This document shows, piece by piece, positions 5,073-31,945 of a DNA stretch of 64,000 bases. Origin of the DNA: Persicirhabdus sediminis. Lineage in GTDB: Bacteria > Verrucomicrobiota > Verrucomicrobiia > Verrucomicrobiales > Akkermansiaceae. A program made the translations under genes and the position numbers. Every line of letters starts with the position of its first letter. Position 1 is the stretch's first letter. The notes beneath the pieces are model-generated. The model did not search any database. It saw only the letters and a list, made by a program, of their open reading frames with translations, and had not been told where the DNA came from. The stretch spans positions 62,001 through 126,000 of the forward strand of contig NZ_JAENIM010000021.1 in assembly GCF_016595495.1 (NCBI RefSeq), given 5' to 3'.

Positions 5073-8000
5073 TTATTGTTCTTTTTGAGGGGTTTGTTGG
5101 ATGTTCATTAGTTTTGAGCCAGCTGGGATCTGGTACTCAGAGCTTGTTCCATCAGGCCAGGTGACCTGCAGCAGGCCTCTTTCATGTCCACCCATGCCAA
5201 AGTGCAATGCCTTTGGGTGAGCTGATAGATAACCAGTGGTCGAGTGAACTTCTCGCCACACTTGGCTGCCGTCGGAAAATTTCATGATGGCAGTCGCGCC
5301 AATAGCATCACCACCATGGCGGTCGACTAACTTGATAGATGCCGAGCTACCTAACTTCGCGCCCATATCATTGCGCCACAGGCTTACCTCACCGTGATAC
5401 GGATTCACCGCCACATCGAGGTCGCCATCACCATCGTAATCAAAATAAACCGCAGAGCGTGAATTCCCAATAATGCCGAGGCCGCTAGCGTCGGTACCTT
5501 GTTGTAGACGCCCGCCATCATTCACAAAAAAGACATTCTGTTCGCTGCGTCCATGGGCAAAAGTGACTTCTTTTTTTTCCCCTCTAAGAGGCTCGGCGTA
5601 GAAAGGATTCTCTTCGGCGTAGATGTTAAAATCATTCATGCCATTGAGCACGTAGAGGTCATCGTCGCCGTCATGATCAAAATCAAAAAAATCAGCATCC
5701 CAAGACCAGCCAGTTGAAGCATATCCACGATCTACCAGCAGGCTGTTTGTTAGCTTTGGCAGGCCCGCTCCAGCTGAGCGGGTTGAGAGAAATAAATCAT
5801 TGGCCTCAACCACACGCATGTTGGCTAACTTTTCTGGGTTAAAAGATGCCGTCGTGCCCTCGTTAGGCAAAACGTACTTCTGGTCCTTATTCATCGTTAC
5901 GATGTTGGAGATGTAGAAATCTGGCAGTTCATCAGCATTCAAATCCGCAATACCTATGCCCATCGTATAGGAGGCTTTTCCCGTTCCCAACTGTTCGGTC
6001 ACGTCCACAAAGCCAAGGTGTCTGCCGTCTTTGATTCCCAAGTTGCGATAATATACGTTAGAGCCAAAATCATTCCCCGAGATCAAATCCTGCCAGCCAT
6101 CGCCATCGATATCCGAATGGCCAACCGCCTGCGTCCAGCCACAATCGCCAACTCCAACAGACTGGGTAACATTCTCGAACTGGAATCCACCAAGATTGCG
6201 GAATAGCTGGTTTTCTCCACCATTGCGATTATGCCTAGCTAGGGTTGGTAAATCACCTGATAGATAGTTTCCAAAATAGCCAATGTAGATATCTAGCAAG
6301 CCATCTTTATCATAGTCCAGCACCGTGCAAGGCCCAGCTACTTGTCCTTCTCCGCCAAGCTGAGCCAGCTGGCTTAAATCCTCAAACTTCCCGCTACCAT
6401 CATTACGATAGATTCGGTGTGAATCATTAACATAGGAAATAAACAAATCTTGATCCCCGTCATTATCAAAATCAACAAAGATTGGCTGGCGAACTTCACC
6501 ATAAGTTCCATCCTCACGTTTCCAGTCTATGCCAGCTTGCTGCGTTACCTCTTTGAATGTTCCGTCTTGCAGGTTTTGATAGAGTTTATTGCCAGCTCCG
6601 CTAAGAACCAAAAGGTCAGGCCAGCCATCACCATCGACATCCTCAGCGGCAATGCCACTACCACCAAAGGCTGGTGGAATGGTGATTTCCCCAACGCCAT
6701 TCCCCTTGTTGATATAGCTGCGCAGCTGGCGGGATAGCCAATCCGATGAACGATGCTGCATCGCTATGCCCACTAGATCAGTAACTTCTTTAAAATAGAC
6801 ACCCTCACTAGCAGGCTTCGCCTTCGCCCCCTGACTTGAATGTAATGTCAGCTCTGGTCTCTCAGCTGGAGAGCCCATCATTGCATGCTCCTGAATCAAA
6901 GATTGCAGATATTGCAGAGCCTCACCTAATCTATCAGAGGATAAATACTCATCTCCAGCTTGTTTGCTTTTTTCACCTGCCTGACGCCATAACAAAACAC
7001 CAAATTGAGCTACCCCCTCAGCGAGCAGCTCGGCTGCAAATGGGCTAACATCCAGCAGGATCTGTTTTTCATAATCACTGAGAACATATTTCAGATAAAG
7101 CCAATGCAGGCCACTATCACGAAATGCATCCATGTCATAAGCCTCTATTTCGATGCTCTTATCAGCTAACTTGGGAAAGAAACTAACATCTTCAAATTCA
7201 TTCACCTCAAAAGGAGTGAAGCTCTGCAACGCGCGATGCATGCTAGACTCACTTATCAATTCCTCACCATCACGTTCCGCTAGCTGCTGAGCCAGCAAAT
7301 AAAGATCGCCAGCAAACTGCACCATTGCCTGAGTATAATATGACCTCAACTGCTTTGCTTCAGCGCTGTCGCTAGGCCAACGGGCCTTGGCAAAATACAC
7401 CTGCAGGTTTCTCACAAACAGCTGATTATTAACAGCGTTGTAAGCCTGGTAGCTGGCTAACTTTTGCGCAATCACCTGCGGCAAAATATGTTCACCGCCT
7501 TGAGACAGCTCCTTCTCAGCTTGGTCTTCAGGTGTAGCAACTAAACCTAACTCCAACCAAGCCTCTCTGAGTATCTGTTCTGAGATCTCATTGCTATTTC
7601 GCTCTCTGGCTAACTGGTCAGCCTTCTGTAGAGCAGCTAGAGAATAATCATCCACGACTGACTTCAACCCCGCTACCATTGGCTCACTCAGATGAGTTAA
7701 TTTCTCACCACCAAATAACAACTGCTCTTGTTTAACTGCTAGAATAGCTCGCAGTGAATAGGCAATACTGCTATACTGACGACGATCTCGCCCACTCAGC
7801 TCAATTCTCTCACCATCAGCTAATTCAATCACACATGATCCTTCAAGCGATGGCTGGATCCTTGGCAATGCCCTCTTAGAGATCGCTTCTTCTATCAGTG
7901 AGTCCTCTGGATTCGAAGCATGAATAGATTGCCAGATACTTTTCGCTAGGGACTTCAGCAATTCGTTGTTAGCGAAGCGAGCATGGCAACTCAACGGTGT

Positions 8001-8195
8001 GCCAAACATGAAGTCCTGTAAACGACTCGCCGTAGCATAACATTTGGGATCGCTTTTCGCTTCCAAAGTCTGAATCTGCGACACGACTGAGTGCGCAGAA
8101 TCAGCTGAGTCCTGAGCCAGTAATACTGACGAAGGAATCAGTAACAGCGCCCCGCCAATTATTGACGGGACACTACTCTGTAGTTTGACTTTCAA
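5073..8195 (-). CDS. Secreted FG-GAP/VCBS and ASPIC/UnbV protein (CRTAC1-like)
   Basis: A 1040-residue protein. A signal peptide (IIGGALLLIPSSVLLAQ) is followed by about 420 residues of mostly helical sequence that I cannot assign. From about residue 470 to 930 lies a beta-propeller of FG-GAP repeats with seven calcium-binding-type loops, such as DVDGDGWPD, DFDNDGDQD, DYDKDGLLD, DFDHDGDDD and DYDGDGDLD. The C-terminal region (REVHSTTGYLSAHP...LHFGMGG...VTWPDG) is an ASPIC/UnbV domain. The architecture is common in secreted proteins of Planctomycetes and Verrucomicrobia; its function is unknown. The start is TTG, 3 nt after the stop of the S74 gene and in the same reading frame. The signal peptide right after the TTG argues for a separate start. 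Confidence 0.85.
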   Translation of the reverse strand: MKVKLQSSVPSIIGGALLLIPSSVLLAQDSADSAHSVVSQIQTLEAKSDPKCYATASRLQDFMFGTPLSCHARFANNELLKSLAKSIWQSIHASNPEDSLIEEAISKRALPRIQPSLEGSCVIELADGERIELSGRDRRQYSSIAYSLRAILAVKQEQLLFGGEKLTHLSEPMVAGLKSVVDDYSLAALQKADQLARERNSNEISEQILREAWLELGLVATPEDQAEKELSQGGEHILPQVIAQKLASYQAYNAVNNQLFVRNLQVYFAKARWPSDSAEAKQLRSYYTQAMVQFAGDLYLLAQQLAERDGEELISESSMHRALQSFTPFEVNEFEDVSFFPKLADKSIEIEAYDMDAFRDSGLHWLYLKYVLSDYEKQILLDVSPFAAELLAEGVAQFGVLLWRQAGEKSKQAGDEYLSSDRLGEALQYLQSLIQEHAMMGSPAERPELTLHSSQGAKAKPASEGVYFKEVTDLVGIAMQHRSSDWLSRQLRSYINKGNGVGEITIPPAFGGSGIAAEDVDGDGWPDLLVLSGAGNKLYQNLQDGTFKEVTQQAGIDWKREDGTYGEVRQPIFVDFDNDGDQDLFISYVNDSHRIYRNDGSGKFEDLSQLAQLGGEGQVAGPCTVLDYDKDGLLDIYIGYFGNYLSGDLPTLARHNRNGGENQLFRNLGGFQFENVTQSVGVGDCGWTQAVGHSDIDGDGWQDLISGNDFGSNVYYRNLGIKDGRHLGFVDVTEQLGTGKASYTMGIGIADLNADELPDFYISNIVTMNKDQKYVLPNEGTTASFNPEKLANMRVVEANDLFLSTRSAGAGLPKLTNSLLVDRGYASTGWSWDADFFDFDHDGDDDLYVLNGMNDFNIYAEENPFYAEPLRGEKKEVTFAHGRSEQNVFFVNDGGRLQQGTDASGLGIIGNSRSAVYFDYDGDGDLDVAVNPYHGEVSLWRNDMGAKLGSSASIKLVDRHGGDAIGATAIMKFSDGSQVWREVHSTTGYLSAHPKALHFGMGGHERGLLQVTWPDGTSSEYQIPAGSKLMNIQQTPQKEQ

Positions 8196-8198
8196 TGA

Positions 8199-9884
8199 TT
8201 AGTTAGCCTTGAGGGCTTCCACTTCTTTCATCAATGCTTGCAGTTGAGCTTCCATTCTGTCGCTCTTCTCTTTCAAAGCATCAATTTCAGCATCCTTTTC
8301 TTCAACTGTCTGATTAAGACCTTGAATCGCTGCTAGAGCGACGCCAGCCATATCACGGCTGCTAATTCTCGTATCAGAGTCACCCAAATCAAACTGGGCT
8401 TTAAAGCCCTGCGCCATAGGACCAATGTGACGCGCTTGACTACGGTCGTTCTTATAAGTCCACTCTGACACTGGCAGTTTAAGCACCTTTTCAAGTACTT
8501 CTTGCTGGTCCAGCTTCACAAAGTTAGTTTTTTGAGTCTCATCAGAAAGCTCAGTCAGAGCCTGACAGGTAATATTTCCTGTAAAAGTTGAACCACTGTA
8601 CTGCCCAAAGCTGAGCCTATCTCCGAGCAAAGCAGAAGAAATTGTTAGTGAGCCATCCGACTTTGACGTTAGACTCCATGTCTCAGCTGATGACTTCGCC
8701 GAGATCACAGCATTCTGACCAGCGCCAACAACCTCAGCAAGCACTGTAGCACTTCCAGTTCCTGAGTTAACTGCCGAAATTGTTGCTGTTCCATTGGATG
8801 AGTTTTCAGCTTTCACTGAAGCGCCGTTGGCATCTGTACTTTCAGCTAAAATACTTGCCACAGCGTTAGTTCTCCTAACATGAAGCGCTGCTTGCGGGGA
8901 GCTTGTACCCATACCTACATCGCCATCACCATGGATATCTATAGAGCTTTCTGGAGCACCAGGCCTAATTCGGAATGATAACTTTGATCCGTTAGTTACA
9001 TCACGGATGAAAAAGTTAGCTTCATTGCCGGCCATGTCCCATGTCTGCGAAGCAAAACCACTTGTACCATTCTGTTCTAACCGCAATGTTGGGGTATTAC
9101 CTGTGGCTGTATGCAGATCGACAATTGGTGTTGATGTTCCAAATCCTACATTGCCTCCTGACTTAACATAAAGAGCGTTATTGCCAGCTCCTTGAGCTAC
9201 GTAAAATGGTTTGGTGCCCGCATCTGAATCTTCGAAAGCCAAATAGTTGGCTCCACCGTTAGAACTATCATTCGCTACAATTCTCCAATCAGCCGAAGGA
9301 AAACTCGCAGAGGTACTGGTATCTTGAAAATGAATACGTAAATTGTTCTCCTTTAGTCGAATGGTATCAAAACCGAAACTTTCACCATTCACCGAATCAA
9401 AGCCTGCAGCTAAACTTCCTTGTATAATCGTATCATCAACATGGATGACATCGCGAGGCAGCATGCCGGAATCGTTATCAAAGCTACCTGTGTGAGCTAT
9501 AGGAAAGGAAACTGCTCCTCCAACTACTTTGAATGAGCCTGAGTAGTTAGCTGACGATCCGCTGTTAGCCTCACCAGCTCCACGCGACAACTGCTCGCCG
9601 GTATACACCACCAATGACCATGTATAATCGCCATCAGGCAGCACCTGATCTGATTGAGCGAGTACTTCAAGATTAATGGACTGGCCAGTTGTATAGGTAT
9701 TCACCAATGGGAAAATGGCTTCACCATCAACTGTGAGCGTTGCGCTCGACCATGTTTCATCAGTTGTCCAGCTAAGTAACTCACCATCATTGATGGTAGA
9801 TACCGTGGTTTCAGCGCACACGTTCCCAAAGCTCAGCAAAGCCACGGAACTAGCGCAAATCATCGATTTGCTAAATTTTTTCAT
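8199..9884 (-). CDS. Secreted tail-fibre-like protein with C-terminal S74 chaperone domain
   Basis: A 561-residue protein. A signal peptide (SMICASSVALLSFGNVCA) is followed by beta-rich sequence, then two segments of the VGFGTSTP/VGMGTSSP...LH type that are common before S74 domains. From about residue 443 comes a Peptidase_S74 intramolecular chaperone domain (SDETQK, SEWTYKND, RHIGPMAQGF). The last 45 residues are a heptad-rich coiled coil. In phage endosialidases and many bacterial surface proteins this domain drives trimerisation and can release itself by autocleavage. It is the first gene of the operon that continues with the FG-GAP and PEP-CTERM genes. A fibrous surface trimer is inferred; no phage genes are nearby. 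Confidence 0.85.
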   Translation of the reverse strand: MKKFSKSMICASSVALLSFGNVCAETTVSTINDGELLSWTTDETWSSATLTVDGEAIFPLVNTYTTGQSINLEVLAQSDQVLPDGDYTWSLVVYTGEQLSRGAGEANSGSSANYSGSFKVVGGAVSFPIAHTGSFDNDSGMLPRDVIHVDDTIIQGSLAAGFDSVNGESFGFDTIRLKENNLRIHFQDTSTSASFPSADWRIVANDSSNGGANYLAFEDSDAGTKPFYVAQGAGNNALYVKSGGNVGFGTSTPIVDLHTATGNTPTLRLEQNGTSGFASQTWDMAGNEANFFIRDVTNGSKLSFRIRPGAPESSIDIHGDGDVGMGTSSPQAALHVRRTNAVASILAESTDANGASVKAENSSNGTATISAVNSGTGSATVLAEVVGAGQNAVISAKSSAETWSLTSKSDGSLTISSALLGDRLSFGQYSGSTFTGNITCQALTELSDETQKTNFVKLDQQEVLEKVLKLPVSEWTYKNDRSQARHIGPMAQGFKAQFDLGDSDTRISSRDMAGVALAAIQGLNQTVEEKDAEIDALKEKSDRMEAQLQALMKEVEALKAN

Positions 9885-23016: not shown

Positions 23017-23422
23017 GATCAAACACTCCTCTCTAATGATTGGAAAATGATACGCTCTAATTTCATCCTGCAAGATACCACAGTTTTTAGGCAAGTGCCA
23101 CACCTTGACCACCGCTTATTCTTTTACGGTCAATAGATAAAGCTCCTCACCCAACAAACTCAAGTTCTCTAATCACTCGCATATCAAGGATGTTACCGAT
23201 TGCAAATCCAGCGGAGCCAGCCAGCTAGAAATTTGTCAAATGATAGAACATTTCGTTATGAATTCGCTAGATCTCAGCCAGCTAGCTAGAATTTCTCTCT
23301 GAGCCGCTACTTTCCGTCGATGAATAGGCCACAGCTCTTAGCTAGAGGAAATGCAGCAAGCTAGCCGACTCCTTGATGATTATGCGCTTGCAAGACCTGA
23401 ACAAACCATCATACAGACGTTT
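23017..23422. other. Divergent gap between patatin operon and PEP-CTERM protease
   Basis: About 400 bp that must hold promoters for both directions. It is dense in CCAGCCAGCTAG-type words (23215-23227, 23277-23292). No clear palindromic operator or RNA gene was found. Confidence 0.5.
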
Positions 23423-24331
23423 ATGAAGAATTGGCTGGCAGCTCCTCTCACACTCCTGGCATTGGTTTCTCCGCTTAGTGCGGTGGTGATTCGCGATGAT
23501 GTTTTTACCAACAATGGCGGGCAGCTAGATCCATCTGTGGATCATGTGGATGCGGGCTACAGCCAGCATAGTAGTTTCGCCCAACAGGATGTTTTCAAAG
23601 CGTGTTTGCAGTGGGGTGATGGCGTCAGCGCCAATAGCAGCTCGGGCACCTGGCTAGGCAATGCTAATGGCTCCAGCTACATTCTCATCGCAGGTCATTC
23701 TAGTAAGTCAGCCAATGGCTTCGTCTCCACTGGTTTTGAATATACCGACTGGCAAGGTCAAACGACCACACTCAGCTCAGCGAGCGTGACTCACTGGCGC
23801 AATGATGTCGCCGACATCGCCATTTTACAAATCGACCAGCCCATCGTGATTCTAGATGCGGTGAATCCTATCTTTTACGATGGCGACCAAGAGGCAGGCA
23901 AAGTTGTCACCTGGATAGGTACTGGATTTCGCGGCACCGGGCTGGCGGGGCAAGATTTTGACAATTTCGGCTCTGGCCGCGCGGCGGGCCAAAATATCAT
24001 CGATGGCGCGATGACCGCCACCACTTTTGAGTTTGACTTCGACTCGGCTGCTCATACCAGCCTGCAGCTGGAAGCTCACCAAGCCAGTGGTGATAGTGGT
24101 GCCGCTGGCTGGATTCAGGTCAATGGCCAGTGGATGATCGCCGGGCTGGTTTCTGAAAGTGAGTACCCTGAAGTTTACCAAGCTAACAACATCATGGTGC
24201 GTACGTCTGGCACTCTAGACTGGATCACTAGCACCTATAGCGGCGCATTTACCGCCGTGCCCGAGCCTAGCTCCGCAATCTACGCAGCTCTGGCGGCTTT
24301 AGTCTTTGTTAGCCAGAGAAGACGCAGCTAA
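23423..24331 (+). CDS. PEP-CTERM trypsin-like serine protease
   Basis: About 302 residues with a signal peptide (MKNWLAAPLTLLALVSPLSA). A chymotrypsin-fold triad can be placed: His in LIAGHSSK, Asp in NDVADIAILQID, and Ser in ASGDSGAAGW. The C-terminus is a PEP-CTERM signal (VPEPSSAIYAALAALVFVSQRRRS). It is therefore probably an exported protease tethered by or processed through exosortase. ATG 23423 is chosen because the signal peptide begins there; an in-frame ATG at 23351 would add 24 non-hydrophobic residues. It converges with the NusG-like gene, 17 nt away. Confidence 0.87.
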   Translation: MKNWLAAPLTLLALVSPLSAVVIRDDVFTNNGGQLDPSVDHVDAGYSQHSSFAQQDVFKACLQWGDGVSANSSSGTWLGNANGSSYILIAGHSSKSANGFVSTGFEYTDWQGQTTTLSSASVTHWRNDVADIAILQIDQPIVILDAVNPIFYDGDQEAGKVVTWIGTGFRGTGLAGQDFDNFGSGRAAGQNIIDGAMTATTFEFDFDSAAHTSLQLEAHQASGDSGAAGWIQVNGQWMIAGLVSESEYPEVYQANNIMVRTSGTLDWITSTYSGAFTAVPEPSSAIYAALAALVFVSQRRRS

Positions 24332-24348: not shown

Positions 24349-24891
24349 TTATTGGCCATCGCCAGATTCATCAATTTCCTGCTGGAGAATGAGAGAAAAG
24401 AGGTCGACGTCGACAACTTGCCTAGACCCTAACATCTCAATTAACATTCTCACTCTATCATTGCCGCCGAGCAGCTCGACCACTTCACCTTGCATACCTT
24501 CTAATGGCCCGTAGGCGACTTCTACTTCATCGCCAATCTCGATGCTCGGCTTGAGCACCACGGTTTCCCCCTCTTCCAGCTGGCTCTGCAGCGCGTGGAT
24601 GAATTCCTCGTTGATCGTGGGCATGAAATCACCAAATTTCACGATGGTGAGCACGCCATAGGCATACCGCACAGCTCGCTCCATTTTCTGGCGGTCGAAC
24701 TTGGCAAATAGATAGCCGGGAAACATCGCTTCCAGCCACCAAATTTTGCCGCGTTTGGTCGCCTTGCGGTATTTCAGCCGCGGGCAAATGACCTCCACAC
24801 CATCCAGCTGGCGGAGCTGTCCTGCGGCGATGTGCTCGCGCTTTGGTTGACAGCGCACACAATACCAAGCCAGCTGGGGTTGCTCATTCAT
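24349..24891 (-). CDS. NusG/RfaH-like transcription elongation factor
   Basis: A 180-residue protein with an N-terminal NGN domain (WYCVRCQPKREHIAAGQL, then MFPGYLFAKFD) and a C-terminal KOW-type region (IGDEVEVAYGPLEGMQGEV). Housekeeping nusG normally sits with secE and rplK; this copy does not, so it is a specialised paralogue of the RfaH/LoaP kind that lets RNA polymerase read through long, often surface-polysaccharide operons. Its start overlaps the stop of the GbsR-like gene (ATGA). The target operon is unknown. Confidence 0.88.
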   Translation of the reverse strand: MNEQPQLAWYCVRCQPKREHIAAGQLRQLDGVEVICPRLKYRKATKRGKIWWLEAMFPGYLFAKFDRQKMERAVRYAYGVLTIVKFGDFMPTINEEFIHALQSQLEEGETVVLKPSIEIGDEVEVAYGPLEGMQGEVVELLGGNDRVRMLIEMLGSRQVVDVDLFSLILQQEIDESGDGQ

Positions 24892-25394
24892 GATTTTGTT
24901 CCGAGAAATTTCTGCAGCAGTGGCAATACCATCTGCACGCGCTTAGACCAACGTTCTAGGCGCTCGACGCGCTCTAATAAGAACTCTTTTTCCTCGCCAG
25001 CTGGCAGGGCATCAACGTCGCCTTCTAGCGCTTTCAGCTTGCGTGAGCCACTCTCCATATGCGGACGAATCTCCTCTTTAATAAACCCACCAACCAAGCG
25101 CTTGAGCTCGACGTCAGCTTTGTAATACGTCTTGCGGTCGCCGGGTTTATTCTCCTCTAGCACGGCGCCCAGAGTGCGCAGCATCTTGATGCCTTGGCTC
25201 GCTGAACCTTTGCTAATTTCTAGCCGCTGGACCATTTCATCCATCGCTAAGGGCTCGCGGCTGGAATAGAGCAGGCCGTACATTTCTCCTACAGATTTTG
25301 GTAAACCTAGCAATTTAGCGCCATCGCTAAAATAACTGACCATCTGTTTCTCTAGGGATAGGATCTCATCCGATGCTTCACTGCCCATGCTCAT
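24888..25394 (-). CDS. GbsR/MarR-type winged-helix regulator
   Basis: About 168 residues with a winged-helix domain of the GbsR branch (GEMYGLLYSSREPLAMDEM, then LEISKGSASQGIKMLRTLGAV and the wing GDRKTYYKAD). A C-terminal helical region is probably for dimerisation. The start is ATG 25394 or 25388; a TTG at 25430 would add 12 residues but lies within an inverted repeat. It is translationally coupled to the NusG-like gene, suggesting one switch that controls initiation and elongation. A long inverted repeat lies 20 nt upstream. Confidence 0.85.
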   Translation of the reverse strand: MSMGSEASDEILSLEKQMVSYFSDGAKLLGLPKSVGEMYGLLYSSREPLAMDEMVQRLEISKGSASQGIKMLRTLGAVLEENKPGDRKTYYKADVELKRLVGGFIKEEIRPHMESGSRKLKALEGDVDALPAGEEKEFLLERVERLERWSKRVQMVLPLLQKFLGTKS

Positions 25395-25413
25395 GACGAT
25401 GATAATGACGTAA

Positions 25414-25453
25414 AAATGCGCAGAGTTCAATTATTTTTGAACTTTGCGCATTT
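25414..25453 (-). terminator. 17-bp inverted repeat: terminator of the 1721-residue protein, or operator of the GbsR-like gene
   Basis: The arms AAATGCGCAAAGTTCAA and TTGAACTCTGCGCATTT match at 16 of 17 positions with a 6-nt loop. On the minus strand the second arm runs into TTTTTA, so it fits a rho-independent terminator about 75 nt past the stop of the large gene. It also lies 20 nt before the likely GbsR start, where an autoregulatory operator would be expected. Confidence 0.7.
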
Positions 25454-25527: not shown

Positions 25528-28500
25528 CTATTCTGCGCTTACGCGAATGAATATTTTCTCTTTACCTTTTTCCAATGGGTAATTTTTCACCCCATCAATC
25601 ACCTCAGGCGTTTGCTTATAGCTGGACCAATTGACCAGATCTTCTGAGGTTTCCACCTTGTATTCCATCTTGTCGCGCATGCCGTGAGCCACGCTAAATG
25701 AACCGTCTTTGCCGCCTTGGATCGTTGGTTTCTTGCCCATGAAAGCGTAGAAATCAAAGGAGACATCTGCCGGAACTGGCTGCAGAGCCTGCGCACTCAG
25801 CACCTTGATCGTATCGCTCGAAGTTAGCTCGTGAGCCTTCCATCCTTCGTAGTTATTTGGCAGCAAGTAAGCCCCAGCCCAAACTCCAAATGGATGTCTG
25901 CCTTCGTAGACTTGATTCACCTCAAGTCTGAGCAGATTGACGCCGACGACATCAATATCGATGTGCTCAGCCATGTCGGCCTGGCCAGCTGGAGCCCCCT
26001 GATAGATCAGCTTGCCATCACCGTAAACCTTGAATTCCAACAAGGTTGATTGCGGGTTATCAAAATTTGTATAACAGAAAGTGTCAGACACAAAGCGCAG
26101 GTAATTACCTTTGAGGTTAAATTCCAAGACACTCGGCGTATGGAAACCAAATCCTTTTTCATAAACCCAGTTGCCCATTACAATCGGACTAACATTATTA
26201 TTCAGGGCATCCACCCCAAGCTTCTGCCAGCCATTTTGAGAGCTTACCAAAGGCATGTCTGATAGGAAGACCGCAGCATCAGGGAAGCCAACTAACTGAA
26301 GTGGCTCTTGCAGCTCAAGATCACCAAAAGTAACTGAGCTGTAATTGCCAAATCCTGGACCCTGAGCTAGCTGCAGCGAATCGATGTAGAGCTCTTTACC
26401 ACTCTTAATCTGCAACTCGATAGAATTGCCGCCTTCCTTGAGCTGACACCAAATGTAACGATCTTTGTAGCGGCTAACTGGACTCGTTAGGCTATCTTTA
26501 GTCCCTAGAGCCACACCTGAATCTTGTTGGTTAATGCGGCCTGATACAGTGACTGATTGCCCCACTAGATCAAACTCACCCGCATCTGCGCCAGCACCAT
26601 TGACCACTAAGTTAACGTTACGCGACGGGCTAGAATCAGTTGAATAATAAGGAATGTTCAGCAGGTACTGACCACTACTTGGCACTTCTACATTCCACAC
26701 AATGTATGCTGAGTTATTTTTTGGGAAATAAGCACACTGGTTAGTAGTCGCATTCTCCAGATAGAGTTTGTCCACCTTATCGGCAGCATCAGCCAATGTC
26801 ACTACTTCACCTCGCATAATGAAGGCTTCACTAGCTGGGTACAGGCGACGTACTGATTCATAGATCTCATTTTCGTCGCTAGCCGCAGAGCTCTCTATGC
26901 TGGCTAGCTGATTCAAATTCGCACCTGGCGGCATAACCTTGACGCGAGCTACATCGTAATCAGATAGACCTTCCTTGTTAGTCACCTTGAGGTGGAAGGT
27001 GAAAGTTGTAGGTTCACTAACTACGGGAGCGGTGAAATTCGCAATGCTCTGTTTAGCTCTGGTAAGGCTAACGGACGGACCATGCTCGGTTTTCACCTCC
27101 CACTGGTAGCTGATTTCACTGCCATTTGGATCATCCGAGCCCGTGCCATCAAGATAGACAGTGGAGCCGCTAGCCACAATCTGGTGGCCTGCTGTCACCG
27201 CATATGGATAGTGGTCAACAGCGACATTAGATTCCTCAAAGTAGACTAACATCACGAGATCAGAAGCATTACCATTGGTATCCGTGGCCGTCACCGTCAG
27301 CACGTTAGGTCCAGGGAAATGCTTAGCTACATCATTGCTAACTTTATAGACATAAGAATTGCCATCAAAGTATCCAGGGAAGCCAATAGACTTGCTCAGG
27401 TGAACGGTATCGCCATCTGGCTCCTCCACATCAAACTCGATGCGCAGCGTTTCCCCCGCTTTGGCACGGAAGATGTTTTTGAAGCCGCCCGGACCTTCTC
27501 CTGGTTTGGTCATGGTGATTTTTGGCGCTGAGTTTGCTAGAATACTCAGCTGCATGACTTTTTCGGAAACGCGTCCGTGTTGGTCAGTGGCGCGCAGGGT
27601 GATTTCATGAGCCCCCACGAGATGCTCTTCAGCCACCACCGTATACACGCCGCCAAAGCCGCGTGCATTTTCAATAACACGACCAACCTGACCTGACATG
27701 CTGATTTCCATCGGCGACACAAAATCTGTCTGCACCGCAATTGGCACGGTTAGCTGCTGGCCTACAACAATGCTATGCTGTTCTGGCACCGTGCGCAGCT
27801 CAGGAGCTGGTCCTAAGTTAGAAACTTGCAGATCAAAATAGATCGTCGTTTGCCCCACACTTCCCTGGCCTTTGATCGCCAGCTGATAGTTGCCGATGTC
27901 TGAAGACTTCGGTGTCCAGCGGATGTAATAATCGTGATCTCCATGGCTGTCTGGCTGACGCACTAATGTCGCGCCAGATGGTAAGTTACTACAAGAGACA
28001 ACAACATCGCCATCGCGACCTTCTGCTCGCAGGATGTGCAGATTATAAGACTGACCTACTCCAATATGTGAAGGACCACGAGCAAGTAGCACTGGGCGCT
28101 TCAGGTCCCCCTTCCAGCTAGGCTGGTTAGAGCGGCGCTGAGTGACTACTTGGAAAAAGTCAGCTACTTCTTGGCCGTATTCACTTAGGATATCAGTATA
28201 GACACCTGAGTACTCATTGGGATCAAAACCGCTAGATACCATGCCGGTATTGTTACAGTAGCTACAACCGTCGCCGCCGCAGTATCCGCAGGTGACTTGG
28301 CTGCCTGAGCCGCTAGCAAGCTCCGTTCCCAACATTGCTTTCCAAATCAGATAGGATGTATACTCCACATAAGACTGTATGTCTTGTGGGTCATCCTTAT
28401 CCATCAAACCATAACGGTATTGAATGTGCGCCCACTCTCTGTAAGCGGAATCCTTTTTTCCATTCACATAGGTCGGGTAATTTTTCGCTAAATTAGCCAG

Positions 28501-30693
28501 TCTATATTTCTCTAGCAACAATCTGTTAAAGGATGCCATGCCACTCGCTTGGCCAGTGTACCAGCAAGCAGACCAGAAGCGTCCGACGCCGTCGTCATAA
28601 TCACGTGTGGGCGCGAGAGCTGAATGTGTCTCCCACCATCCGTAACGCAATCTGCGGTACTGAGCGGTGCGGGTAGCATCGCCAGAGATATCTTTTTTGG
28701 CACTAATCACACCGTGCAGCAGCAGCACGTCGTCCATAGAACTATTAGGAGCAAAATCCCAATAGCCATTTTTTGTCCATGGCGCATCAGTCCATTCTCC
28801 ACCTACCCACGTAGGGAGTTGGTATTCATATGCCTGGATCTTATTCCAGCCGTCTTGCGCGTACTGAGCCATCGCCAGTGAGTCATAGTCCCAGCCAGAA
28901 CTGGAATTTTTTAGAGGCGAATAGAGAGAGTTAAACAAGGATGATGTTTGTGCCACCATGCCCGGTGTTGTGCCCTTTGTTAGCAATTCGCGGATTGGCT
29001 CCTGTGAATAAGCTGGCGGGATAAAATGAGGCATCCACTCCTTCCAGTTGAGCATGTTTTTGCTGATAAACTCTACCGATCTGTTGTAGTCGTGGTAGTC
29101 AAAATGAATGTCCTCGATGGTTGCCGTTTCATGGCCCGTCCACGCTGGCCAGAAATCTCCGCCCTTATTCAATGGCGGATTGTTGCTTCCTGGAGCTGTG
29201 CCTAACGGCCCTGACTGCAAGAATGGCTCATCCATGGTCATAAATGGCCCAGGGTGATTGTAGCGTAGAAATTCGTAAACTTTCTCACCTGCTTCTGCAT
29301 CACCGAGCGCGCCTGCAAATTTTTTGGTACTAGAAACCACACGCGCTGGAGCAAATGACTCACCAAACATCACTAGGTCTTTGCCACTATCAGTATGGCA
29401 AGCGCCACACTTCTCCAGATAGATGGCTTCCCCCTCAGCTAGACGTTCTGGGGAAAAGGCATCAGGCGCGAGGTAACTAACATCGCGTTTGCCTGTTTCC
29501 TTATATGGCAGCTCAAAGTAGTGAGGTAACTTTGCATTTTTGCGCTTCCAGAAATGATCTTGAGGCTCCAACAGCTCTTTCTTTCCATTAGCCTGATTGA
29601 CCATGTAGATTGGCAAGTTGCGGTATTTGGCAAACAACTCAGCATTCATCTTTTCACCAAATGGATTCACAGCTACCGGCATGGAACACTCACTCGCATA
29701 TTCAAGATGCAGTTCAGAGCCGGTATCAAACTCTAACGAACCATCAAGAGCGATAGAGCCATACTGATTCTGCCAATCAAGGTTGAATGACTCATAGAGT
29801 TCGAATTGATACAAATTTCCGCGATATGTGTCCTTGGTATTTTCACAAGGTTTATCTACCAGAATGCGAACGTAGCGAGTTTGCTTAGGAGTAAAATTAC
29901 GATCAGTAATTTCCAACACATTGCCAGTCACCACATCGAGGTCAATCCAGTCGCTATCTTTGCTCAAGCTTGGATTAGACTTGGTACTGTATTGCAGGCG
30001 GTAGTTGTAGAAGACCTTCCCCGAGCCCACCTCGTAAGGGCTGGTCATCCTCATCACCCAGCGCGAAACTGTATACACATCTTGTAAGTCCACCATCAGG
30101 GTGTGGCTATCACGGTAGAAATCATGCCAGTTAGTCTTAGGATTACCATCGGTGATGCGATCTGGCCCTTTCCCACTAACGTAATTGGCTGCCGTAGCTG
30201 GCTTATTGAGCGCGACGTTAGAAGCCGAGCGAAGAGTATGAGGCACAATAGACAAGACACTATTTTCTAGCTGAACGGTTCCACCTGGTCCAATGCCTAG
30301 GCGCCCCGCTTTGAGTGTAGAATTCTCTACTTTAATAGTATTGCCTGATGCTCCTGACGATGAACTCACCCACAGCAAATCATTGACTTGAAGTTGAGCT
30401 TGTTGGCTTAAGTTAAGTTGGTTATCACTTCCAGCCAAACCAACATAACAGGGGCCGTTAATGTTAATCTGGTCACCATTGACCACAACAGTCTCCGCCT
30501 CGCTGCCAATATTTTGGCCTAGAGTGAATCCGTTCTGATAATCGTTGATAGCAGTAATTTCAGTAGTGCCAGCTCTCAAGATTGAGGCTGATGCTAAGAC
30601 TAACATTGCCGCGGATGTTAGGAGGGTTTCACGTGTTTGTCTCCGTGAGATCTTCATTTGTTTTGTGCTTGTGAGTGTCGTTTTCTCCTTCAC
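25528..30693 (-). CDS. Giant secreted mosaic protein with discoidin, cytochrome-c-like, Ig/PKD and NPCBM-like regions
   Basis: A 1721-residue protein. A signal peptide ends near LVLASASILRA. Then come a beta-helix-like start, an F5/8 type C (discoidin) domain (about 150-300; SNVALNKPATA, ITDGNPKTNW), and a unique region with a haem-binding-type CxxCH (EKCGACHTDSGK, about 428). A double CxxCxGxG-like knuckle (CGYCGGDGCSYCNNTG) lies at about 805. Residues about 880-1250 are cadherin/PKD/Ig-like repeats. Further on are a carbohydrate-binding-like region and an NPCBM-like domain near 1480-1630 (GNWVYEKGFGFHTPS). The start is GTG 30693 or ATG 30657. No family fits the whole protein. A c-type cytochrome enzyme or a polysaccharide-binding protein are both possible. 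Confidence 0.8.
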   Translation of the reverse strand: MKEKTTLTSTKQMKISRRQTRETLLTSAAMLVLASASILRAGTTEITAINDYQNGFTLGQNIGSEAETVVVNGDQININGPCYVGLAGSDNQLNLSQQAQLQVNDLLWVSSSSGASGNTIKVENSTLKAGRLGIGPGGTVQLENSVLSIVPHTLRSASNVALNKPATAANYVSGKGPDRITDGNPKTNWHDFYRDSHTLMVDLQDVYTVSRWVMRMTSPYEVGSGKVFYNYRLQYSTKSNPSLSKDSDWIDLDVVTGNVLEITDRNFTPKQTRYVRILVDKPCENTKDTYRGNLYQFELYESFNLDWQNQYGSIALDGSLEFDTGSELHLEYASECSMPVAVNPFGEKMNAELFAKYRNLPIYMVNQANGKKELLEPQDHFWKRKNAKLPHYFELPYKETGKRDVSYLAPDAFSPERLAEGEAIYLEKCGACHTDSGKDLVMFGESFAPARVVSSTKKFAGALGDAEAGEKVYEFLRYNHPGPFMTMDEPFLQSGPLGTAPGSNNPPLNKGGDFWPAWTGHETATIEDIHFDYHDYNRSVEFISKNMLNWKEWMPHFIPPAYSQEPIRELLTKGTTPGMVAQTSSLFNSLYSPLKNSSSGWDYDSLAMAQYAQDGWNKIQAYEYQLPTWVGGEWTDAPWTKNGYWDFAPNSSMDDVLLLHGVISAKKDISGDATRTAQYRRLRYGWWETHSALAPTRDYDDGVGRFWSACWYTGQASGMASFNRLLLEKYRLANLAKNYPTYVNGKKDSAYREWAHIQYRYGLMDKDDPQDIQSYVEYTSYLIWKAMLGTELASGSGSQVTCGYCGGDGCSYCNNTGMVSSGFDPNEYSGVYTDILSEYGQEVADFFQVVTQRRSNQPSWKGDLKRPVLLARGPSHIGVGQSYNLHILRAEGRDGDVVVSCSNLPSGATLVRQPDSHGDHDYYIRWTPKSSDIGNYQLAIKGQGSVGQTTIYFDLQVSNLGPAPELRTVPEQHSIVVGQQLTVPIAVQTDFVSPMEISMSGQVGRVIENARGFGGVYTVVAEEHLVGAHEITLRATDQHGRVSEKVMQLSILANSAPKITMTKPGEGPGGFKNIFRAKAGETLRIEFDVEEPDGDTVHLSKSIGFPGYFDGNSYVYKVSNDVAKHFPGPNVLTVTATDTNGNASDLVMLVYFEESNVAVDHYPYAVTAGHQIVASGSTVYLDGTGSDDPNGSEISYQWEVKTEHGPSVSLTRAKQSIANFTAPVVSEPTTFTFHLKVTNKEGLSDYDVARVKVMPPGANLNQLASIESSAASDENEIYESVRRLYPASEAFIMRGEVVTLADAADKVDKLYLENATTNQCAYFPKNNSAYIVWNVEVPSSGQYLLNIPYYSTDSSPSRNVNLVVNGAGADAGEFDLVGQSVTVSGRINQQDSGVALGTKDSLTSPVSRYKDRYIWCQLKEGGNSIELQIKSGKELYIDSLQLAQGPGFGNYSSVTFGDLELQEPLQLVGFPDAAVFLSDMPLVSSQNGWQKLGVDALNNNVSPIVMGNWVYEKGFGFHTPSVLEFNLKGNYLRFVSDTFCYTNFDNPQSTLLEFKVYGDGKLIYQGAPAGQADMAEHIDIDVVGVNLLRLEVNQVYEGRHPFGVWAGAYLLPNNYEGWKAHELTSSDTIKVLSAQALQPVPADVSFDFYAFMGKKPTIQGGKDGSFSVAHGMRDKMEYKVETSEDLVNWSSYKQTPEVIDGVKNYPLEKGKEKIFIRVSAE

Positions 30694-31585: not shown

Positions 31586-31804
31586 CTAGCTTTGCTCAGA
31601 TGTCGTCTGAATATCTTGCAGTGCGGCGATAAAATCAGCCAAAATATCCGCCGGCACCATGATGGTATCGCGGTTGCCCGAGACATCTTCCGTGATCTTG
31701 ACCACCTTACCTCGGGCATTCTGTTTCAGATCTAAATAAAATGTCTTACGATCTGCCAGAATCTTCTCTGTATGCAACAACTCGCTGTTTCTTCTATCGC
31801 TCAC
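31586..31804 (-). CDS. PUR-domain (DUF3276) nucleic-acid-binding protein
   Basis: A 72-residue protein matching the compact bacterial PUR domain related to Pur-alpha (LHTEKILADRKTFYLDLKQN, then GKVVKITEDVSGNRDTIMVP). Members bind single-stranded DNA or RNA; the family is typical of Bacteroidetes, Planctomycetes, Verrucomicrobia and spirochaetes. The start is GTG 31804. It stands alone, without a clear operon. Confidence 0.88.
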   Translation of the reverse strand: MSDRRNSELLHTEKILADRKTFYLDLKQNARGKVVKITEDVSGNRDTIMVPADILADFIAALQDIQTTSEQS

Positions 31805-31945
31805 GGTAAAATCTATGTTGTAAATCTAGCTTCCTACGAAGCTGGAACTTTGCCAATATCTGGACTCATCTAATCGAAGTCAAGTAAAAGCGCTTGTTTT
31901 CATTTCAGCTAGACAAACACGATTAGATCCTGCACTAACTAAGCC

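Follow-up and report, generated by a model that had tools for sequence, protein, structure and literature searches.

A four-copy family of probably exported proteins joining a predicted c-type haem site to carbohydrate-binding-type domains in Persicirhabdus sediminis

In the window, the 64,000-nucleotide stretch of Persicirhabdus sediminis DNA analyzed here, we found a gene for a large mosaic protein in which a predicted cytochrome-c-type haem site, a Trp-rich domain and a Cys cluster lie between carbohydrate-binding-type domains, and which has three further full-length paralogs in the same genome. The CxxCH motif is well supported as a genuine haem site by its conservation in all four copies and by weak, consistent profile matches. 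Tentatively, and with a confidence falling a little short of probable, we read the window protein as an exported mono-haem c-type cytochrome that would be anchored to polysaccharide and pass electrons. As such it would represent an undescribed type of exported cytochrome-CBM protein, present in four copies, and its Trp-rich domain together with the conserved haem block makes a compact target for structural work.

Reading frame and domain mosaic

The open reading frame lies on the minus strand and runs from a GTG at 30693 to a stop at 25528 (1721 codons), the plus strand across 25528-30693 being packed with stops. An ATG at 30657, which corresponds to residue 13, is favored by the paralog alignment and would give a product of 1709 aa: since two paralogs start opposite this codon (MNLPRG.. 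and MKISRG..), the product is probably of this length and carries a signal peptide. By eye, this segment probably constitutes a Sec signal peptide, and no cell-wall or membrane anchor was recognized in the window protein. The features, with residues numbered from the GTG, are:

25528..30693, minus strand: whole frame, 1721 codons from GTG; putative exported mono-haem cytochrome mosaic with three full-length paralogs
30571..30657, minus strand: likelier ATG start and predicted Sec signal peptide, residues 13-41 (MKISRRQTRETLLTSAAMLVLASASILRA), from the sequence and the aligned paralog starts
29851..30195, minus strand: discoidin (F5/8 type C) domain, residues 167-281 (PF00754, E 3.5e-12, over cut-off)
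29134..29532, minus strand: predicted cytochrome-c-type domain, residues 388-520 (PF13442 in 4/4 copies, below cut-off; conservation)
29395..29409, minus strand: CGACH, predicted haem-attachment motif, residues 429-433 (CxxCH invariant in 4/4 copies)
28294..29133, minus strand: Trp-rich domain of unknown fold, residues 521-800 (invariant residues; Pfam, NCBIfam and PDB gave no notable match)
28243..28290, minus strand: Cys cluster CGYCGGDGCSYCNNTG, residues 802-817, CX2CX4CX2C (four Cys invariant)
26929..28116, minus strand: Ig/He_PIG-type repeats and K319L-like PKD, residues 860-1255 (PF22352; the rest by paralog alignment)
26374..26856, minus strand: CBM35-like beta-sandwich (weak), residues 1280-1440 (PF16990; CBM35-type structures)
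25864..26271, minus strand: NPCBM/NEW2 carbohydrate-binding-type domain, residues 1475-1610 (PF08305, E 1.1e-20, over cut-off)
25531..25776, minus strand: C-terminal module (..E.S.DL..W...LF.RV), residues 1640-1721 (recurs in other exported-type proteins of the genome)

The mosaic described in the original prediction is borne out: the F5/8-C, PKD and NPCBM domains score over their Pfam cut-offs (the K319L-like PKD at residues 1169-1253, PF22352, with E 9.8e-12), the short motifs lie where it had placed them, and domains of polysaccharide-binding type flank the core. To these parts we add one that it had not named, a weak CBM35-like match at residues 1328-1368 (PF16990, E 0.003, below cut-off), within the stretch 1280-1440 that CBM35-type structures match at E 0.04-0.5. 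A search of a defence library returned no match. The C-terminal module (..E.SSDL..W....F.RV; about 60-90 residues) closes all four paralogs and, from a reading of their tails, at least seven other large frames (L066-L081); possibly it is a common export or sorting end.

The haem site

The CxxCH motif is invariant in the four copies (CGACH, CGACH, CALCH and CATCH), and arises in 37 of 20,000 residue shuffles of the window protein. A cytochrome-c-type helix, which matches PDB cytochromes over about 25 residues, ends in this motif, and residues 417-459 match PF13442 with 19-24 bits against a cut-off of 27 (E 4e-5 to 1e-3), a match that recurs in all four copies. The proposal that CGACH is a cytochrome-c-like site is thus sustained by the 4/4 conservation and the consistency of these weak matches. 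The genome also encodes ResB, a component of System II for haem-c attachment; where System II is present, an exported CxxCH protein can be expected to bear haem c.

Similarity to cytochromes stops soon after the motif. M485 and M487 are not conserved, being Q and F in paralogs, so that the usual class-I His-Met site is not evident. The four-copy alignment nonetheless leaves M442, H480, H530, H556 and M719 as invariant candidates for the distal ligand, which speaks against the possibility, raised in the original prediction, that CGACH lies in a fold devoid of an axial ligand. AlphaFold, run on the window sequence alone, gave models of pLDDT 32 for residues 377-864 and 44 for residues 395-530, neither of them usable and no axial ligand being located; the better of the two had moderately confident helices only at about 415-429 and 466-479, and Foldseek with this 395-530 model (pLDDT 44) found no match.

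The Trp-rich domain and the Cys cluster

The Trp-rich stretch that follows (521-800) found no match of note in Pfam, NCBIfam or the PDB, and includes the invariant residues H530, H556, C710 and M719 along with many invariant tryptophans; over residues 380-870, 13 of the 18 tryptophans are invariant among the four copies. PDB and Pfam profiles of the core recovered nothing beyond the cytochrome helix: matches to an NRPS domain, a phospholipase and a ribosomal protein (E 0.08-0.7) were judged to be due to chance, and a ccoP match at 713-865, which spans the Cys cluster, was taken as a CxxC effect.

The CX2CX4CX2C cluster is invariant in all four copies, which disposes of the possibility that the Cys knuckle would prove unconserved in homologs. 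It did not arise in any of 20,000 residue shuffles of the window protein. The three paralogs bear a second cluster just before the shared one (eight Cys), where the window copy has one (four Cys), and the window cluster aligns to the second half of their double cluster (L031:14434-14544, L032:10646-10765); as this alignment reads, the single and double forms reflect a loss or gain inside the family. The description of the knuckle as DnaJ-like did not hold. One half of the DnaJ zinc finger (CXXCXGXG, PF00684) is resembled in the CxxCxGxG spacing and glycines, but the window cluster lacks the long linker between pairs, there is no J domain and the protein is probably exported. PF00684 misses the cluster, its sole hit (E 0.29) falling on the CxxCH of one paralog. 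In an exported protein, such a cluster may be a zinc site, a set of disulphides or an iron site.

Four copies with a conserved haem block

Beside the window gene, the genome, 4.17 Mb in 47 contigs and 97% complete, holds three paralogs: one on G000:C42 (2214 codons) and two in tandem on G000:C39 (1944 and 1950 codons), these lengths being measured from stop to stop. All four copies share the order cytochrome block, Trp-rich domain, Cys cluster, Ig/PKD repeats, low-similarity CBM35-like stretch, NPCBM and C-terminal module; ahead of the cytochrome block lies F5/8-C in three copies and NPCBM in one, so that Pfam finds carbohydrate-binding-type domains in every copy. No recognizable operon surrounds the paralog genes.

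Whole-length identity between the window copy and the three paralogs is 35-36%, and it is very unevenly distributed. The invariance of CxxCH and of the Cys cluster in paralogs so dissimilar elsewhere weighs more heavily against chance than the shuffling does. Residues 388-520 form the best conserved block of the family (67-70%), with conservation highest at 401-520 and peaking at 82% at 441-480; identity falls to 29-35% across the Trp-rich domain (521-800), stands at 44-47% for the Ig/PKD part and is lowest, at 19-30%, for the N-terminal and CBM35/NPCBM parts. Between the tandem copies, the cytochrome block shows a dN of 0.066 at a dS of about 1.6, as against a dN of 0.38 for the N-terminal and NPCBM parts. 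Constraint is strongest on the haem block and weakest on the binding domains, and this contrast therefore favors the interpretation of the four copies as one redox core with varying targets.

The original prediction had called for a search for the same domain order in other genomes. Within this genome, the order recurs from the CxxCH domain onward in the three paralogs, whereas the sampled genomes held no relative of the core. Profiles of the core were run against genomes of the family (260), order (387), class (384) and phylum (388; 387 largely the same), samples that overlap, and found none; the hits obtained share the cytochrome helix or Ig repeats only, and the frames read around several of them code for unrelated proteins. 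Two pattern scans of GTDB r220 with four short peptides, a pattern scan of IMG/VR and a tblastn search of plasmids likewise recovered no relative of the core. Other phyla were covered by the pattern scans alone and may contain relatives. None of the libraries consulted describes this core.

Comparison with known cytochrome-CBM proteins

Large exported redox proteins linked to polysaccharide breakdown are likewise seen in Cbp2D and Cbp2E of Cellvibrio japonicus and in TERTU_2913 and TERTU_3803 of Teredinibacter turnerae, with their X158, X183 and X132 domains (PMC8981238, PMC10916295). Cbp2D and TERTU_2913 carry c-type cytochrome domains, Cbp2D adding a CBM, FN3 and a further CxxCH domain. The window protein shares with Cbp2D the combination of a cytochrome c domain with carbohydrate-binding domains and export, the last judged by eye. 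It differs in that X183 is small and His-Met ligated, whereas the window family has a single CxxCH followed by a 280-residue Trp-rich domain and CX2CX4CX2C, and in having F5/8-C and NPCBM where the Cbp2D type has CBM2. Neither X132 (DUF1587) nor a YceI-like domain of the Cbp2D type was matched in Pfam, and the libraries used contain no model named X183.

The PSCyt/PSD proteins of Verrucomicrobia, in which a cytochrome c domain is joined to NPCBM or F5/8-C (PMC5615132), share this combination with the window family and belong to the same phylum group; PSCyt/PSD models gave no match, whether the whole window protein (E up to 1) or the four cores (E up to 10) were searched. With the CcoP/cbb3-type mono-haem domain (PF13442), the helix and CxxCH align over about 25-45 residues, but the likeness ends about 10-27 residues past the motif, and in the window family no Met is conserved where the ligand usually lies. 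By the features tested, the window protein belongs to neither the Cbp2D/E nor the PSCyt-CBM proteins, though these two are the nearest models for how it might function.

Proposed function and alternatives

In the favored reading as an electron-passing cytochrome, the chain would cross the membrane unfolded via the Sec route, as is established for c-type cytochromes, whereupon C429 and C432 would receive one haem c through System II (ResB/CcsA), with H433 as the proximal ligand. The distal ligand would be H480, M442, H530 or H556, or the site might be open. The Trp-rich domain may be the surface where the haem meets a partner or substrate, the Cys cluster a structural clamp of zinc or disulphide type, and the flanking beta domains would hold the protein on a glycan. 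The haem could then carry electrons between the cell's redox chain, or an oxidizable substrate, and an extracellular oxidative enzyme, for example the LPMO-chitinase that this genome encodes. The four copies may each serve different glycans, because the flanking binding domains diverged far more than the core.

X183, the c-type domain of Cbp2D, serves as a reductant for LPMOs in vitro (PMC8981238), and growth on insoluble cellulose requires Cbp2D/E, for which a direct polymer-cutting role has been proposed (PMC12542752). A caution against the favored reading comes from Teredinibacter, whose X183 domains failed to reduce their LPMO (PMC10916295). More generally, the electron source of bacterial LPMOs and the role of large exported cytochrome-CBM proteins are open questions (PMC8981238, PMC12542752). 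In P. sediminis a link to LPMOs is testable, because one AA10 LPMO gene, the sole one detected, accompanies the four copies in the genome; it adjoins none of the four cytochrome genes. That gene (G000:C39:18251-21730; L082:4252-7731, minus) is a 1160-codon frame for a secreted AA10 LPMO with a mature N-terminal His, three Calx-beta stretches, a CBM2-like domain and a GH18 chitinase domain, all on a single chain.

The original prediction had suggested a haem-dependent surface enzyme. Its haem site stands; "enzyme" and "surface" are not borne out, an electron carrier being at least as likely and no anchor having been recognized. The strongest alternative to a carrier, though rather unlikely, is still a redox enzyme, in which the Trp-rich domain would work together with an open-sided or unusually ligated haem c, and possibly with a metal bound in the Cys cluster, to oxidize a sugar, a phenol or peroxide directly. 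A parallel is the polymer-cutting role proposed for Cbp2D/E (PMC12542752), and the enzyme reading is favored by the variable M485 and M487 in place of a conserved Met at the usual distance after CxxCH, the invariant His of the Trp-rich domain with the 13/18 invariant Trp of 380-870, and the presence beside the haem of a conserved domain larger than a simple carrier needs; the protein nonetheless matches no catalytic family and has no second haem motif. More boldly, and improbably, the core might be a new redox enzyme that oxidizes polysaccharide outside the cytoplasm using haem c and perhaps a Cys-cluster metal (rubredoxin-like iron is conceivable), the copies differing in their glycan.

We consider it quite improbable that the family consists of structural or adhesive matrix proteins whose CxxCH domain no longer binds haem and whose Cys pairs form disulphides: beta-sandwich, adhesion-type domains do make up most of the length, and export into oxidizing surroundings favors disulphides, but CxxCH and its surroundings are conserved better than any other part (82% at 441-480), which is not how a decaying site would look. 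That the window protein is a divergent PSCyt/PSD protein of planctomycete type is very unlikely, for despite the shared phylum group, the pairing of one cytochrome c domain with CBMs (PMC5615132) and the occurrence of PSCyt1 in two other genes of the genome, no PSCyt or PSD model matches, which already makes it unlikely by profile.

Genomic setting

The window gene, for which we prefer the role of an electron-passing cytochrome, is solitary: directly downstream lie overlapping HTH regulator-like and NusG-like antiterminator genes (24349-25430, minus), and upstream a small PUR-alpha-like gene and dnaE. The PUR-alpha-like ORF (31589-31807, minus; PF04845, E 8e-10) was too short for the ORF list. 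At 23351-24331 (plus) is a gene for a 326-aa exported-type protein with an SGDSGAAG motif, perhaps trypsin-like, that had no Pfam match. Elsewhere in the window, neighboring genes at 5073-9884 (minus) code for a 1040-aa FG-GAP/ASPIC-UnbV protein and for a second protein, which has a Peptidase_S74 (endosialidase chaperone) domain and weakly matches ricin-B.
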